From an uncultured Candidatus Poseidoniales archaeon (GTDB taxonomy: Archaea; Thermoplasmatota; Poseidoniia; Poseidoniales; Thalassarchaeaceae), in the NCBI GenBank assembly GCA_902560445.1, contig CACELO010000006.1:1-55770 (forward strand): 55,770 nt of DNA, given 5' to 3'. Numbering within the stretch: the stretch's first letter is position 1; each line of letters begins with the position of its first letter. The notes under the pieces are model-generated. The model saw only the letters and a program-made list of their open reading frames with translations, searched no databases and was not told where the DNA came from. Positions 29,134-37,579 of the stretch are shown here, piece after piece. A program made the translations under genes and the position numbers.

Positions 29134-29850
29134 TTAATGAGAACCAAGGAAGTACTCGCCTATTTCTGGATCTGTTAGAATATGCTGTGCGTCACCAGTA
29201 TGGACTACTTTACCGTTGGCAAAAATATACCCTCGGTCGGAACGAGCAAGACTCAATCTAGCGTTCTGCTCGACAATAAGCACAGTGATTCCTTCTTCTC
29301 TCAGAGCATCTATTCTCTCAATTATTTGTTGCTGATAGAGGGGAGAAAGTGCGGCTGTCGGCTCGTCGAGCAAAAGGAAAGTTGGATTGGAAATTAGAGC
29401 ACGTGAAATCGCCAGCATCTGCCTCTCACCACCTGAAAGAGAAGCTGCAAGGTCATGAGTTCGCTGTTGTAAATCAGGGAACATATTCAGTGCACGTTCA
29501 ATTCTCTCGGTGAGTATAGTGGAAGGCAGTTTGTTTCCACCCATCTGTAAATTCTCATGAACTGTCAAAGAGGGGAATACATTGTTCACCTGTGGAACGT
29601 ATGCAATACCTCGATTGACTAACTGGTCAGTTCTCCATCCAGACACTTCTTCACCCTCATGTTGAACTGTTCCGGAATAATGAGTGGCTATTCCAAAAAT
29701 TGTCTTGATTAGAGTTGACTTGCCGCAACCATTCGGACCAATGATGGTGACGAATTCTCCCTTATCGACGTACAAGTCAATATCATATAGAATCTGGACT
29801 GAACCATAACCACTGTTCATTCCATTGATTTCGAGTACTCTCTCGCTCAT
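29134..29850 (-). CDS. livF: Branched-chain amino acid-type ABC transporter ATPase LivF
   Basis: A 238-residue ABC ATPase of the LivF type. Walker A GPNGCGKSTLIK, Q-loop YVPQVNNVFPSLTV, signature LSGGERQMLAISRAL, Walker B FLLLDEPTAAL and the H-region VEQNARLSLARSDRGYIFA, whose EQNA is typical of LivF. It powers import by the permease fusion upstream. The ATG overlaps the livG stop as ATGA and has GGAGGTGA 7 bases upstream, so translation is coupled. Confidence 0.93.
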   Translation of the reverse strand: MSERVLEINGMNSGYGSVQILYDIDLYVDKGEFVTIIGPNGCGKSTLIKTIFGIATHYSGTVQHEGEEVSGWRTDQLVNRGIAYVPQVNNVFPSLTVHENLQMGGNKLPSTILTERIERALNMFPDLQQRTHDLAASLSGGERQMLAISRALISNPTFLLLDEPTAALSPLYQQQIIERIDALREEGITVLIVEQNARLSLARSDRGYIFANGKVVHTGDAQHILTDPEIGEYFLGSH

Positions 29851-30638
29851 TCTTCTTCACCTCCTGATTCATCACCTATAGCACCTAGGTATGCCTCGAT
29901 AACCGCCCGGTTACTACGGACTTCGTCTGGTGTTCCAACCATCAGAATCTCTCCTTCATTCATCACGACGATTTTGTCTACTCCTTGTCTGAGTATGAAA
30001 TCCATATTGTGCTCGATAATTAAAACTGATATTCCTGTTTCATCTACGATTTGCCTAAGACTATTGAATATCTTCATCGCCAGTGGTCCCGCTACTCCAG
30101 CCACTGGTTCATCGAGTAGCAGTAACTTTGGATCACCCATCATTGAGCGTCCTATGTCTACTAGTTTTGATTGGCCACCTGAAAGCTCGCTGGCCAAGTT
30201 ATGTGCCATATGTGGAACTTCTAATTGCTCCAACACATCATATGCGCGAACAAGACGTTCTTCCTCTGCAGACGAAGATAATTTCAAGATTGACGCTAAT
30301 GGATTAGGCTTGAATTGTTCCCGAGGAGGAACTAGTAGATTCTCTATTACTGTCATTTGTCGCCACAAGCGAGTATGCTGGAAAGTTCGGGTGAATCCAA
30401 GGTTTTGAATTTGGTCTGGCCGCATATTCGATGCGTCCTTACCGAAAATCTCGATACTTCCTGCTGTCTGATCTAACAATCCACTAATACAATTGAATGT
30501 AGTAGATTTTCCACAACCATTCGGGCCAATCAATCCGATGAATTCTCCAGGGCCGACTTCGAAAGAGACATCCTTTACGGCAATCAGACCTCCAAACTCC
30601 TTTCGGAGATTTTTGACCCTCAGTACTGGTTCACTCAA
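29847..30638 (-). CDS. livG: Branched-chain amino acid-type ABC transporter ATPase LivG
   Basis: An ABC ATPase of about 263 residues. Walker A GPNGCGKSTTFNCISG, LivG-type FTRTFQHTRLWRQMTVIENL after the first strand set, signature ELSGGQSKLVDIGRSM, Walker B LLLLDEPVAGV, and switch LIIEHNMDFIL. It pairs with LivF under the LivH-LivM permease. The likely start is TTG at 30638, 9 bases after GGAGG and overlapping the permease stop; a GTG at 30647 is also in frame but lies within the ribosome-binding motif. The end overlaps livF as ATGA. Confidence 0.92.
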   Translation of the reverse strand: MSEPVLRVKNLRKEFGGLIAVKDVSFEVGPGEFIGLIGPNGCGKSTTFNCISGLLDQTAGSIEIFGKDASNMRPDQIQNLGFTRTFQHTRLWRQMTVIENLLVPPREQFKPNPLASILKLSSSAEEERLVRAYDVLEQLEVPHMAHNLASELSGGQSKLVDIGRSMMGDPKLLLLDEPVAGVAGPLAMKIFNSLRQIVDETGISVLIIEHNMDFILRQGVDKIVVMNEGEILMVGTPDEVRSNRAVIEAYLGAIGDESGGEEE

Positions 30639-33600
30639 CAGCCTCACCTCCTTTCGGGCGCTCGGGTCTAACCGGTACTTCTGGAAGTAGACCCTTAGTG
30701 TTGAACTTCAATGAAAATAGCATCAGACAGCCGATCAAGAAGAGTTTGAAGTAAAGCATGTCAGCAGATACCACGCCGCCAAAGAACGATTCATCGATTG
30801 AACGCTGCCCAAGAGCAATTGCAGTGAATGAAAAGACTGCCACGCCGGCTAAGCCAATTTCAAGAATTTTTTCTGAACGTATTGCGAATCCGATAAATAC
30901 TGCAACTAGGAATGCGCTTACTACTTCCCATGGACTTAGGATTAGCCACTCAAACAACGAATCAATACGAGCAGCTGTGGTGTGTAATGGAAGATCTGCA
31001 GAGCCTTGTCCTGCGACAAGTACGTTGAATACGAATTCCATTAAGACGATGATGAATGCTCCAACGACCATTCCTCGATTGTTCGATGCACCACCAATTA
31101 TGAAGGCAGCCCAAACTAGGAAAGTTGAGCGGGCCGGAGACATGAAGCTCGGCTCAAATCCGGTTAGTTTCCAAGCCCAGAATGCTCCAGCTAAAGCTGC
31201 GATTGAGGCGCCTAGAGCTAGGCTTGCTGCCTTGTGAGTTAGAACATTGTGACCATGGTGTTGTGCAACCTCTTCATCCTCTCGGATTGCCTTTAGGATT
31301 CTACCCCATGGTGAGGAAAGGATTCTGTTCAATAGAATCCAAACAAGGATTACTGCGATAACGGACATAATCATCAGCAAGAACATGTATGGTGCTGGCT
31401 CGCCTAAATTCAACCATTCACCAATCAGATACGCTGGAGTATCGGTTAGATTTCCATCATCGCGGCAGGCATCAGGGCTAACCCAATTTGTGTCGGGTCC
31501 AGAAGTTTCTGAGCCGCAGAACCACATGTCTTCGAATGGTAATGGATAGGAAGAAATTCCTATTGCATTACCGACTGCTCCAACTCTTAGTAATGGCTCA
31601 CCTGCGAGTAATACTCTAACGATCTCACCAAGTGATATGGTTACAATTGCAAAATAATCCGTTCTCAGGCGAGCGGTTGGATATGCTAGCGCCCACCCAA
31701 AGGCTGCGGCTAGCAGTAGGGCAATCAATACTGCCGGTAAAATCGCCCAATCATATCCGTGAAGATTCTCAGGAGCGGTGAGTATTCCAACAGTTATTGT
31801 TCCAATAGCGACGAAGAAGATGACGCCAAAGTTGACCATTCCAGTATATCCGGTGTGTAGATTGAGGGAGAAAGACATCAGAATGAAAATTGAGAGAGTT
31901 AGTAGAACATTGGATACCTGTAGTACCTTCTTGAATCGGAAATCATCAGACTCAGCAATTGGTAACCAGGCTAAGAACAATATCAGAATGAACAGCAACA
32001 AACCGAAAAGAAGCCAAGACCCAATTGGACTCTCCCTTCCATAACTTCGCAGATTCTGCTTATCGTCGGCTGAGCCTATTGGCAGTTTGTCGAGGATGTT
32101 AGAGTATAGCTTGCCAGATTCTGTACTTACCTTTGAGGTAAAATCGCTAGATGATTGAGATATTTTTTCTCTGATTTGCTTGACAATTTGGTCATGTTTC
32201 CTATCAAATTCTGACCAATGTAGTAAAATTTGGGTTTGTAATTTAGTAAATTTAATCGAAATTGAGGAGATTATCTCGTTTATTTTGGCTATGACATTTT
32301 GTGAGCTCTGAGTTTCATATTTTCCCTGTAATATGGAAATTCCTTCATAGATTGAATAGACCCAAAGGAGGACGAATGCCCATGGCCAAAGGATATCGCC
32401 AAAGTCAACTATGAAATTGACCAAATCGATTTCAAAGTTCATTTGATTTAACCAGGATTCATTCATATGCGCAACTTCGTTTGTGGTCCATATCTCTGTC
32501 TCTGCAGGTGTCAATCCTTCAGGAGGTGACTTTTGACTCAATAAATCTGATTCGTCCAAGGGTGAGTCTTCCAATAGCAACGCCCGATCGTTTCTACCGG
32601 TCAAAACTGCTAGATTAGAATCTACAAATTCATCATCTTGGCAAACATCCCCGCAACCATTTGCGAATGAATTTCTCCTCACGAAGTTACTGAATCTGTG
32701 GAAGGCGTATGCTCCTATTGCAACCGCGGAGAAATTCTGCATCCTGTCAGTTCTATTTCGCCACCAGTGATGAAGGCCAAATATTCCAGTAGGTAAAATG
32801 GCTAGAGCGGCTGTGATCTTGTCAGATTTATCGGGGTCATATTCTTTGCGTTTTCTCAGACGATCGATTTTCCATTTCTCATATGCATCGCCAATACCTT
32901 CCGGCATAATCATCAAAATCGCAACCAAGAATATGTACGGCATTACGCCATCTAGTGCAGAATAATTTGAACGACCAAGTGGTAAGCCGATTCCAATCAA
33001 TACAGGAGAGGATAGTGCACGTACAAATCCAACAACCAAAGATCCAATTATCGCTCCAGGAATGGAACCGATTGTTCCAAGAACAATTATTGCAAAGGAT
33101 GGTAGAAGAAGAGTGAATGCCGTTTCTGGATTGAATCTTAGAGTCAAAGCAAAAATCGCGCCGCCCATTCCGGATATTCCTGCTGAGAGGAAAGCACTCG
33201 TCATGTGTACTCTCTCGACATTGATTCCACTGCTTGCAGCCAATTCTGGGTTATCTGCAACTGCCCTCATTCTCCTTCCAAGGCGAGTTTTATTCAGGAT
33301 TAACATCAACAACAATACTGCTGAGAACATCACCACGGGTACAGCGCCTTTGTAGTAGGCATAATTGGTTGTAGCTTGGGTTACACAATCAGCAGTAGTA
33401 TCATAGAGTTCTATAGCGGGTTTTGAGGTGTCACTGACTATTCTAGTTAGTACGGGTTCGCCGGTAGTTTCGTCAATGGTTTCTTCACAGGTCCATTGTG
33501 TGTAGGTTCTACCCTCTTCGAGATTTCTTTCTCCTAGGTTGAAACGCATCTTTGTTGTTGGGAGTTCCCAGCGAAGATTGGGCATTCGCCAATCTCCTTC

Positions 33601-34468: not shown

Positions 34469-37400
34469 TCAAGCGGAAGTGATACCGTTGACTGGGTCCC
34501 AGTTTCTTGTACAATCGTACGAGACTGAGTCGTCGCTTGCGTCGTGAGAGAACTCCCCGACACAGAAGCCAGCTGCAGGAACGTCTCCGTTCGCTTCGAA
34601 GCTGAGCGTTCCGCTAGCGCCGTCCCAGCCTTGACCTACTGCCATTACTGCCATTCCAGCGTCTAGTCCAGGTGTGGACAGAGCTGTGAAAGCAGCGAAT
34701 GCCATGATGGTCACTGCATCGAATGCCTCAGCGGTGTAGATACCGCCAGCACAGTCTGGGTTCGCTGCACATAGGGCAGCAAAGACCTGTCCGACTTCTG
34801 ATAAAGCTCCAGCCGCGGCAGGCTTGGTAGCGATTACTCCGTGGACAAGTGACTTGTCAGACATGTCTGCTGCAAGTCCTTCCTCTGCAATTCCATCAGC
34901 ACCGTAGATAGCACCAGTGTATCCCTGAGTTGCCATCTCTTCGATTAGAGCTGCTCCGTCAGTAGCGTAGGAGACCATCATAACTGATGTGCATCCGTCG
35001 TTCATGACTGAAGCAACTGCTGCCGAGAAGTCAGTTGTTGTCTCCTCGTAACCAATCTGTGTACAGATAGATGCTGAATCCATGTTAGCAACGAATGCAT
35101 CAGCAAGACCTGATCCGTATGCGTTAGTCATGTGAACTACTGCAACATTGTCCATACCGTCTGCGGTCATTACGTCAGCAACTACTGAGCCCTGGAACGC
35201 ATCGCTTGGTACGACACGGAAGAATCCAGGGTAAGCGGTTCCATCGGATAGAGCAGGGCTTGTGCTCGCGTACGAAATCTGAGGGATTCCGGCAGCGGCC
35301 AAGATTGCGTTTGCACCCATGGATGCACCGGAACAAGCTGCTCCTACTGCACCCCATACACCTGCGTCAACTAGGGCTTGACCTGCGTCTCCACCCATGT
35401 CACCGTCACAGCCGGAGTCAGCGTATACAAGTTCGAACTGAACATCACTGCTGTATCCGATAGTGTTGGCTAGGCCAATAGCTATCTGAGATGCTGCAAC
35501 GAATCCAGGCCCGTATACTGCGATAGGTCCAGTTGCATCATTCAAGAATCCAATCTTGACTGTTACACCTGCGTATGGTGCCGCAGTTACTCCTGCATCA
35601 CTACCAGCTTCCCACATTCGGTCACAGTTGAAGTACTGGCCGTATGTTGGTACGTGGTGGAAAGTACAGACATCATAACCTGAGCCACCGACATCACCGT
35701 TGTCTAGGAAAGTGTGTGTTCCACTCTCTCCAGCATAGCCGTCACCGACCATACCGATGTGTGTAGCCATATTAGCACCATCTTCATGCATTGCAGCGTG
35801 ACCAATCATCATGACTGCGTCGTATGCCTCTGCGGTGAAGATACCAGTTGAACAGACATCGTCTGCTGCACAAGCGTCAGTGAAAGCGGTTGAACCGCCA
35901 GCTGGGGCTGCTCGAGGTCGTGTGACCTGAATGCCGTTTGCTGCTGCAGGCTGTGTGTAGTCGTTCAGTGCTGCTTCTCCAGCCATACCGTCTGCGCTGA
36001 AGATTGGGATTGTTGCACCCATTACAGCCATTGTCTCTACGATCATAGCACCATCAGAGGAGTACGCTCCTAGGAATACTGAGTCACATCCAGCATCCAC
36101 AACTGCCTGAACAGCAGCTTGGAAGTCAGTTGCGGTCTCTTCGTATCCGGACTGTAGACAGACATTGTCTGCCCCTAGATTTGCTGCGACTGCATCTGCG
36201 AGACCTGCACCATATGCGTTAGTCATGTGAACAATAGCGGTGTTGGATACTCCGCTTGCTCCAATCATATCAGCTGCGGCTTGGCCCTGCAGTCCGTCAC
36301 TTGGTACGATTCTGTAGAAGTGAGGGTATGCAGTGGCGTCGCTTAGTGCTGGGGATGTGCTAGCGTAGGATACCATTGGGATTCCTGCAGCCGAAAGGAC
36401 TGCGTTTGCACCCATTGATGCCCCTGAGCAAGCAGCACCAGCTACTGCAACAACTCCCGCGTCCACGAGGGACTGAGCTGCTGTACCAGCCGCTGTACCG
36501 TCGCATCCGGAATCCGCCTCAATAACTTCGAAGACGTAATCGTCTCCCATTGCATTGAGGTCAGCCATTGCTGCTCCCCACGCGAAGGTGAATGGAGCTG
36601 CGAACTGGGAAATTGGACCAGATGCATCGTTTAGGAATCCTAGCTTGATAGTTACAGCTGGGTCTTCTGGGGCGACGAACATTGGGTTGTCGGTTCCCAT
36701 GTAGAAAGCTGCGATTTCATCAACTAGAGCGTTTGCAATATCGACATCGAATCCTACAGCGTTACCGTTCTCATCCAAGTTCTCGAATGGAGGGTATGCT
36801 GTATCTGAGCAGAATTTTAGAGATCCTGACTCAAGCACTGAAGATAGTGTTGAGCCCTCGCTAGGTGAAGCTGGGTAAGCTACTGCGGTGTTCTCGTCAC
36901 GGTCATCTGTTAGGACAACAGATCCCTCGAACCAGGCACCAAAGATAGCGTCGTACTCACCGGAGTCAACAATTGCAGTGATAGCAACGTTGAGTGCGTC
37001 GAGTAGCTCGCCTGAATCTTCACGTACTGCGATTCCGAAGGTCTCGTCAGAGAATGTGGTCATCAGGTCACCTGAAAGTGCCAATACTGGGGAATCTCCC
37101 ATAGCATAGTCAGCTTCGCCGTTGGATACTGCTGCAGTTACTGATGGGAAATCATCGTAAGCAACAATTGTAGCCATAGCCAAATTATCCTGAGCATAAA
37201 GATCGGATGTAGTTCCAGACTGAACTGCGATGGTTGTACCAGCAGCATTCAGTTCTGAGACGTCCGAGATTGACGCTGATCCAGCAGCACCGATTACACC
37301 TTGGCTACTTGTGTAGTAACCGCGAGTGAAATCGACTACTTGGTCGCGCTCATCCGTCTTTGTCATGGCAGAGATAATGGCATCACACATCTCACCGTCA

Positions 37401-37579
37401 TTCAAGTTTGGAATGATAGGGTCCCAAGCGGAAGTGACTATGTCAGCCGTAATATCGGCGGCTGGCATTAATTCCCACTCCTCTACTGGGTCCTCATCGT
37501 CCCCACCCAGACAACCTGCGAGTGATGCCGCAAGCATACTGAGTGTCATCAGCATTGCAATCATTTTCTTATCTAACAT
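34469..37579 (-). CDS. Composite solute-binding lipoprotein: permuted type-2 domain plus two LivK-type domains
   Basis: A 1036-residue lipoprotein; signal with lipobox SLAGC (Cys about 22). Residues about 40-290 are a SBP_bac_3-like type-2 binding domain in changed order. It opens with the second half-motif SAWDPIIPNLNDGEMCDAII, runs through VDFTRGYYTS, IAVQSGTTSDLY and EADYAMGDSPVL, and ends with the piece that normally comes first, LKFCSDTAYPPFENLDENG and GFDVDIANALV. Two LivK-like type-1 domains follow at about 311-660 and 671-1036, both starting VT(I/V)K(L/I)GFLNDA(S/T)GPI and sharing GAACSGASMGANA and SYASTSPALSD. They should bind amino acids or similar compounds. The gene leads the transporter operon and is separated from the permease by a hairpin. 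Confidence 0.88.
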   Translation of the reverse strand: MLDKKMIAMLMTLSMLAASLAGCLGGDDEDPVEEWELMPAADITADIVTSAWDPIIPNLNDGEMCDAIISAMTKTDERDQVVDFTRGYYTSSQGVIGAAGSASISDVSELNAAGTTIAVQSGTTSDLYAQDNLAMATIVAYDDFPSVTAAVSNGEADYAMGDSPVLALSGDLMTTFSDETFGIAVREDSGELLDALNVAITAIVDSGEYDAIFGAWFEGSVVLTDDRDENTAVAYPASPSEGSTLSSVLESGSLKFCSDTAYPPFENLDENGNAVGFDVDIANALVDEIAAFYMGTDNPMFVAPEDPAVTIKLGFLNDASGPISQFAAPFTFAWGAAMADLNAMGDDYVFEVIEADSGCDGTAAGTAAQSLVDAGVVAVAGAACSGASMGANAVLSAAGIPMVSYASTSPALSDATAYPHFYRIVPSDGLQGQAAADMIGASGVSNTAIVHMTNAYGAGLADAVAANLGADNVCLQSGYEETATDFQAAVQAVVDAGCDSVFLGAYSSDGAMIVETMAVMGATIPIFSADGMAGEAALNDYTQPAAANGIQVTRPRAAPAGGSTAFTDACAADDVCSTGIFTAEAYDAVMMIGHAAMHEDGANMATHIGMVGDGYAGESGTHTFLDNGDVGGSGYDVCTFHHVPTYGQYFNCDRMWEAGSDAGVTAAPYAGVTVKIGFLNDATGPIAVYGPGFVAASQIAIGLANTIGYSSDVQFELVYADSGCDGDMGGDAGQALVDAGVWGAVGAACSGASMGANAILAAAGIPQISYASTSPALSDGTAYPGFFRVVPSDAFQGSVVADVMTADGMDNVAVVHMTNAYGSGLADAFVANMDSASICTQIGYEETTTDFSAAVASVMNDGCTSVMMVSYATDGAALIEEMATQGYTGAIYGADGIAEEGLAADMSDKSLVHGVIATKPAAAGALSEVGQVFAALCAANPDCAGGIYTAEAFDAVTIMAFAAFTALSTPGLDAGMAVMAVGQGWDGASGTLSFEANGDVPAAGFCVGEFSHDASDDSVSYDCTRNWDPVNGITSA

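Follow-up and report, generated by a model that had tools for sequence, protein, structure and literature searches.

The window analysed here is a 55,770-nucleotide stretch of contig CACELO010000006.1, from an uncultured Candidatus Poseidoniales archaeon of the Thalassarchaeaceae, and our subject is the solute-binding lipoprotein gene on its reverse strand at 34469-37579. The open reading frame starts with ATG, encodes 1036 residues and has zero internal stops. Its signal peptide ends in the lipobox LAGC (residues 20-23); G22 and C23 of this motif are present in all 43 of the full-length proteins that were aligned, among them the window's. In the 1036-residue protein Pfam finds SBP_bac_3 in two stretches, ANF_receptor twice and Peripla_BP_6 twice. 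SBP_bac_3 (hereafter SBP_3) and LivK proteins are different folds that serve different permease families. The SBP_bac_3 (PF00497) score is 92.3 bits against a curated cut-off of 26.4, and both LivK-type copies exceed the curated cut-off of PF13458. The two LivK domains are 49% identical to each other; the best solved relative of the first, searched alone, is the Leu/Ile/Val-binding protein 1z15 (E 4e-23).

The SBP_bac_3 domain is circularly permuted

We divided the domain into HEAD (beta1-alpha1), L1B (what remains of lobe 1 until the chain first crosses the hinge) and L2 (lobe 2 with the C-terminal helices). The native order of these segments is HEAD-L1B-L2, and in this protein it is L1B-L2-HEAD; the domain is circularly permuted. 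The best Pfam stretch places residues 43-218 on positions 38-131 of the 132-position profile. A profile search of the genome puts positions 38-131 at 36926-37453 and positions 1-35 at 36716-36820, so that within the gene the start of the profile sits downstream of its end. Joining residues 243-300 in front of residues 41-236 gave a native-order query, which matched SBP_bac_3 as a single Pfam stretch (12-236 to profile 1-131) and, in phmmer, chain residues 3-235 of 5tuj (AncCDT-1) as a single stretch (1-236, E 2.9e-28). In the natural order both programs require two stretches. Against 5t0w, which is near-identical to 5tuj, HEAD (203-251) falls on chain residues 13-61 and the body (5-179) on 63-246, that is, swapped. 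The first-pass annotation of this DNA had described a rotated domain ahead of two LivK domains and proposed a profile search in both orders. Its description holds: Pfam finds both LivK domains, and a contiguous match from 1 to 131 appears only once the segments are put into native order.

The ligand site is conserved on both sides of the rearrangement. Every one of the 68 rotated domains has S70, T73, R78, T124 and D162 in the body, and D259 and Y262 in the transposed HEAD; the set consists of the window's domain and those of 67 relatives, with a mean column identity of 68% and 56-99% identity to the window's. By motif, we take these residues to be the equivalents of the LAO/HisJ-type site that holds the amino acid carboxylate and ammonium. 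The LAO mutant structures D11A, Y14A, S69A, S72A, R77A and D161A are among the titles of our structure-search matches. Judged by these residues, the permuted domain looks functional as a predicted amino-acid-binding domain.

AlphaFold2 modelled residues 30-308 with a mean predicted local distance difference test score (pLDDT) of 91.5 and a predicted template modelling score (pTM) of 0.87; ten-residue blocks over HEAD score 89-98. A pTM this high would be difficult to obtain if HEAD were not docked. With Foldseek and VIA-align 2, the L1B-L2 part of the model superposes on AncCDT-1 (5t0w_A; Z 15.8, 176 residues, root-mean-square deviation (rmsd) 2.3). The model also matches the SBD1-SBD2 tandem of GlnPQ (6h30_A) over 272 columns with an rmsd of 18.4, values that would be expected of an alignment running along L1B-L2 of SBD1 and on into HEAD of SBD2. 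A profile comparison with 6h30 follows that same order, the HEAD piece being weak (13.9 bits, i-E 0.22).

Table 1. Features of the lipoprotein gene and the genes that follow it (all in the window).
Feature	Coordinates	Strand	Basis
Whole gene: lipoprotein, permuted SBP_3 + LivK + LivK, 1036 aa	34469..37579	(-)	ORF list + Pfam
Signal peptide and lipobox, residues 1-23, LAGC	37511..37579	(-)	sequence
L1B: lobe-1 segment, beta2 to first hinge crossing, residues 44-97; native second, here first	37289..37450	(-)	Pfam, phmmer, segment profiles
L2: lobe 2 and C-terminal helices, residues 98-218	36926..37288	(-)	Pfam, segment profiles
Linker, native C-end to native N-end, residues 219-242	36854..36925	(-)	linker profile matches f3 hinge-cut relatives
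HEAD: native N-terminal segment beta1-alpha1, residues 243-294, transposed to domain end	36698..36853	(-)	Pfam, phmmer, segment profiles
LivK domain 1, residues 305-665	35585..36667	(-)	Pfam
LivK domain 2, residues 670-1035	34475..35572	(-)	Pfam
LivH-LivM permease, fused single polypeptide, 1249 aa	30631..34380	(-)	ORF list + Pfam (PF02653)
LivG-type ATPase	29847..30647	(-)	Pfam ABC_tran + BCA_ABC_TP_C
LivF-type ATPase	29134..29850	(-)	Pfam ABC_tran

The rotated order is conserved in related archaea

The gene is present once in its own genome (1.10 Mb, 38 contigs, 74% complete), and the protein was matched at E <= 0.001 in 63 of 96 related genomes, in some through the LivK or signal part alone. 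Scanning named loci with two short peptide patterns returned 79: one from Heimdallarchaeota (L121), four bacterial and 74 others from archaea, titled Poseidoniales, Thalassarchaeaceae, Thalassarchaeum, Marine Group II or plain Euryarchaeota. The body precedes HEAD in 69 of the 74; one (L117) has the native order, and four (L115, L119, L120, L125) show one part alone. The closest named relatives are L051 (99%) and L118 (98%). Five loci (L061, L074, L093, L094, L106) carry isolate names of the AG-/AH- kind, which we take to denote single-cell genomes.

An assembly error or frameshift, which the first-pass annotation had listed as a possible refutation, was considered as the cause of the order and rejected. 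In its favour, the gene is spread over more than one frame in L054, L065, L071, L075, L078, L083 and L099, as happens in draft genomes. The same order nevertheless recurs in those 69 loci, from many assemblies, with the domain varying over the identity range given above; this excludes chance or a bad join, and we regard an artefact as practically negligible. The survey of related genomes that had been proposed thus found the rotated order to be the rule. Among the relatives' sequences viewed, no relic HEAD was seen by eye between the lipobox and L1B. Repeats of the GCTDxxAxNYNxxAxxDDGSC type occur at domain borders, after the lipobox in L016, L023, L040, L041 and L044 and before the first LivK domain in L018, L022 and L028.

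The gene heads a Liv-type operon

The genes downstream of the lipoprotein encode a fused LivHM permease and the LivG- and LivF-type ATPases (Table 1), in agreement with the Liv-type system first proposed for the locus. We asked for the series solute-binding protein (SBP)-LivHM-LivG-LivF, in order and on one strand, in 73 named loci (the 74 less L117). It is complete in 50, partial in three (L061, L071, L099) and absent from 20. By their lengths, the 23 loci without a complete operon run out ahead of the series or partway through it, and the order holds in 50 of the 50 loci long enough. L099 was scored as partial because its LivF match (35%) falls on LivG, where the contig stops. Of 51 relatives tested, 49 encode LivHM in a single uninterrupted frame; the exceptions are L079 and L083. 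In the window's own genome, PF13458 matches are confined to the two LivK domains of this gene, and the sole PF02653 match is the LivHM permease of the operon. The permease that adjoins the SBP_bac_3-LivK gene is thus of family PF02653, not PF00528.

All three cyclic orders occur in archaea

Assigning segment orders by segment profiles, we found all three cyclic orders of HEAD, L1B and L2 in archaea. The third, L2-HEAD-L1B, we call hinge-cut. L121 (titled Heimdallarchaeota, JACZSS010000092.1, 4590-6563 +) encodes a 658-residue protein in which a Ser/Thr-rich linker separates two L2-HEAD-L1B units. Relatives of this tandem were sought in 389 genomes of the window's phylum. Among the proteins scanned with the segment profiles, the hinge-cut order is present in four genomes of f3, another group of the same class that may be Marine Group III (L172-L175; L2 is partial in L175). 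In three of these four loci (L172-L174) the hinge-cut gene is divergent from permease-like and ATPase-like frames. Pfam identifies those of L172 (154-3763) as a PF00528 permease with a PSII_BNR (YCF48-like) part and an ABC_tran ATPase, beside the hinge-cut SBP_3.

Within the window's own family, proteins of about 335-345 residues encoded beside purC also belong here. All three hinge-cut segments are found in L032, L035, L036 and L038, and L2 followed by HEAD only in L033, L034 and L037, in both cases with low segment-profile scores. A strong match to this purC-type protein (E below 1e-60) is present in 17 of 148 family genomes, the window's genome not among them. The purC-type genes (for example L033:2721-3755 +) adjoin SAICAR synthetase (purC) and a class IV aminotransferase, neighbours that were checked with Pfam in L033. 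A C-terminal 17-residue stretch with a mean hydropathy of 1.66-2.76 is present in the 12 hinge-cut proteins tested.

The native order is found in L031 and L117, inside frames of 894 and 1219 residues; L117 (4483-8139 +) also contains Ldl_recept_a. Compared with the 148 family genomes, the L117 domain has a whole-length match in two among the matches listed, and both of these also carry the rotated gene. LivHM was unmatched in the L117 locus; the operon search there gave only an ATP-binding cassette (ABC) ATPase, at 1651-2346, that is 27-30% like LivG/LivF. Another family of the phylum, f17, has native tandem SBP_3 arrays (L167-L171) with up to four units per frame (L167). By eye, the L171 array appears fused to a permease.

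A common junction linker and the trees of the domain

The segment that joins the native C-end to the native N-end in the rotated domain is recognisable in one hinge-cut group as well. We built a profile of this linker (window residues 219-246) from the 68 rotated domains and searched 469 frames with E up to 5. It matches all four hinge-cut proteins of f3 (L172-L175), with independent E-values of 7e-12 to 3e-7. In L031 and L117 the values are 0.035 and 0.043, just before HEAD and with the second half of the profile only. No SBP_3 frame was listed from the 18 single-copy natives L195-L212 or the tandem natives L167-L171, and unrelated frames of L169, L167 and L207 scored 1.8, 1.8 and -0.2 bits. 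An L2-linker-HEAD junction common to the rotated and f3 hinge-cut proteins is what the excision of both from a single tandem array would be expected to leave.

Trees were computed with 19 of the 68 rotated domains and three of the four f3 proteins, the partial L175 being left out. The purC-type rows came from three of the 17 strong-match genomes at first and two later, after L036 was dropped for its very long branch. The f17 units were those of L169 and L171 (of five loci). Bacteria were represented by L126 and L127 (of L126-L129), with L126 dropped before the 51-row tree, again for a very long branch. L131 was scanned for the 51-row tree and yielded no row, and L210 is absent from the L2-only tree.

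In the 51-row tree, with the segments set in native order, the permuted forms together with L031/L117 split from 23 natives (support 95/69). The rotated rows group together (96/78), and L031/L117 are sister to them (80/93). A tree of L2 only (50 rows), which is free of segment seams, also recovers the native/permuted split (99/95), the rotated rows with L031/L117 (96/87) and the rotated rows by themselves (81/71). Our first tree had nested L031/L117 among the rotated rows with low support (82/44); we rejected this placement, as the fuller 51-row tree and the L2-only tree separate them. In clade tests on that first tree, neither the rotated rows as one clade (p 0.482) nor L031/L117 with five hinge rows (p 0.16) was rejected. 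On the L2-only tree, a clade of all permuted rows without L031/L117 was rejected (p 0.022), a weak result because the group was named post hoc. The purC-type rows have long branches. The minimum number of changes of segment order on the tree is three, and, counted by hand, a native and a hinge-cut backbone each need three. Either direction of change is thus equally parsimonious, and L031/L117 may have returned to the native order.

Discussion

We propose, with a probability of roughly 0.68, that this gene encodes a membrane-anchored Liv receptor with a working permuted SBP_3 trap and two LivK traps, the permutation having originated in a tandem array. The product would be the receptor of a branched-chain-type amino acid ABC importer, SBP-LivHM-LivG-LivF. 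HEAD, which carries the site Asp and Tyr at the end of the domain, would turn back to pack on lobe 1, next to the segment that bears the site Ser/Thr and Arg. All three traps would probably deliver to the single LivHM channel, giving a wider amino-acid range or a higher local catch. The earlier idea of three sites serving one Liv permease fits a genome, 74% complete, in which the only LivK-type protein and the only Liv permease belong to this operon; delivery itself we infer. As to origin, in a tandem SBP_3 array L2 of one copy would have been connected to the following copy's HEAD through a linker that can still be recognised, and trimming at different places could have left the three cyclic orders seen in archaea.

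Several observations weigh against this reading. Rotation barely shifts the summed scores: Pfam moves from 97.4 bits (natural) to 100.7 bits (rotated), and phmmer E from 3.2e-28 to 2.9e-28 for 5tuj and from 2.6e-28 to 3.1e-28 for 5t0w. Since rotation restores contiguity and not score, the argument for permutation rests on contiguity. The structural comparison that the first-pass annotation had called for is answered in part: the model of the domain is confident, and the superposition covers its L1B-L2 part, the sequential aligners spanning approximately model residues 8-198 and leaving HEAD uncovered. At full length, AlphaFold2 gave a pLDDT of 86.7 and a pTM of 0.63, with residues 57-62, within the permuted domain, scoring below 50 in pLDDT. 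The linker profile is weak on purC-type proteins (about 0.02, from 0.018, in L032, L035 and L036; 0.14 in L038; partly 0.5-3.8 in L142-L146) and, in the same search, found no match in purC-type L033, L034 and L037 or in L121, where the linker seems similar on visual inspection. The usual partners of SBP_3 proteins are PF00528 permeases, and delivery from an SBP_3 domain to LivHM would be unusual. Contig C3 of the same genome in fact has a native SBP_3 protein (L131), which we take to be AapJ-like, 2-4 kb from PF00528 matches. Proteins of the LivK-LivK kind lacking an SBP_3 part also exist (L047 and L049 in family f2; L048 in family f1, genus g4).

The LivK-LivK proteins, and a full-length pTM that predicts no fixed arrangement of the three domains, would suit a protein whose permuted SBP_3 domain is folded but acts as a sensor or regulator, leaving the LivK domains alone to deliver to LivHM. 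We think this unlikely: Pfam showed no signalling gene among those directly downstream in the window, the gene precedes LivHM at every locus long enough, and in L172 a hinge-cut SBP_3 adjoins a PF00528 permease. Still harder to credit is a permuted domain that is a non-binding spacer. The border repeats of some relatives look like spacers, but the invariance of the site residues and the column identity of the rotated domains argue against a non-binding relic. The more serious competitor, which we place somewhat short of even odds, concerns origin: the rotated form may derive from a hinge-cut tandem such as L121 and not from a native one. Hinge-cut proteins fall on the rotated side of the native/permuted split in both the 51-row and L2-only trees, and one of them is a tandem that contains L1B-L2-HEAD as a sub-stretch. 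Set against this are the sister position of the native-order pair L031/L117 in those trees and the equal number of changes that the two kinds of ancestor need. The first-pass proposal of tandem duplication with loss of both ends accordingly gains from the linker common with f3 and from the tandem form in L121, and has an equally parsimonious competitor in the hinge-cut route.

Beyond the proposed receptor with three traps, a broader claim is doubtful in our view: that cyclic order is fluid within one archaeal SBP_3 clade, where excision from a tandem array at three seams produced all three rotations; that L031/L117 returned to the native order from a permuted ancestor; and that the rotated form, as the first of three traps of two folds on one Liv channel, is probably the livK reported from these archaea.

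Ionotropic glutamate receptors also hold a LivK-type and an SBP_3-type domain in one chain; they differ by domain order, by their ion channel and in having no permutation. Among SBP_bac_3 proteins, AncCDT-1, ArgBP, LAO and GlnPQ SBD1-SBD2 are alike in profile, L1B-L2 fold and site residues, whereas here the segments are rotated, the domain is fused to LivK and a Liv permease stands in place of PF00528. LivJ/LivK (Peripla_BP_6, PF13458) resemble both C-terminal domains and the operon; the present protein differs in having two of them in tandem after a type-2 domain, and its operon in the fusion of LivH and LivM.

Permuted binding proteins are already known, and a permuted SBP_3 domain with a LivK fusion is a new variant. 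According to the available passages of its report, TpMglB-2 (Tp0684) belongs to the type I proteins and has its permutation in the N lobe, and the name "Type Ic / Cluster Bc" was proposed for it; it keeps glucose binding and closure, and tethering was suggested as a reason for its permutation (PMC4990184). It is alike as a natural N-lobe circular permutation in a membrane-tethered binding protein of an ABC importer, and differs, in the portions available, as a single domain of the type I sugar-binding fold with one permuted order described. The domain studied here is SBP_bac_3, type II by sequence, and falls outside Type Ic / Cluster Bc, which denotes a permuted type I fold. The CPSARST report, as far as available, gives circular permutation among glycine-betaine-binding proteins, molybdate-binding proteins and CysB (PMC2395249). 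These too are two-lobed binding folds, but they were found by structure between groups of low identity and not as several orders in one close clade. In the searches of open-licence literature, the titles and beginnings of abstracts among the matches listed describe no permuted SBP_3 protein, and PMC2861598 makes no mention of permuted or swapped segment order.

MGIIb genomes, save two subclades, are reported to carry a branched-chain amino acid binding protein (PMC6336850, available passages). In the available text of PMC9723583, livK and aapJ are among the most transcribed genes of Ca. Thalassarchaeaceae, collocated with full transporters, and the substrate of livK is called hard to guess. 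The permuted domain is unmentioned in those passages of either paper. Because the window's genome has one LivK-type gene, the highly transcribed livK, as described there, is probably the gene at 34469-37579. If so, it has an extra type-2 site, and its range may exceed branched-chain amino acids, which may alter the interpretation of a major gene of these abundant marine archaea.

In the course of its evolution the SBP_3 domain appears to have been cut anew on several occasions, its order having changed at least three times on the tree. The coexistence of all three orders, two of them with a shared junction, adds interest beyond a single permutation. The case for permutation through tandem duplication and loss of the ends is usually built on two end states; a clade in which three rotations occur together with a tandem form and a common junction linker makes the tandem route testable stepwise. 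Profile-based annotation shows such permuted domains in pieces.

Binding domains are also fused in other combinations in the window's family. L042 (2002-5163 +) has a LivK-type domain and an SBP_bac_5 peptide-binding domain in one frame by Pfam, and a segment search finds a similar LivK-type and SBP_bac_5 fusion in L043.

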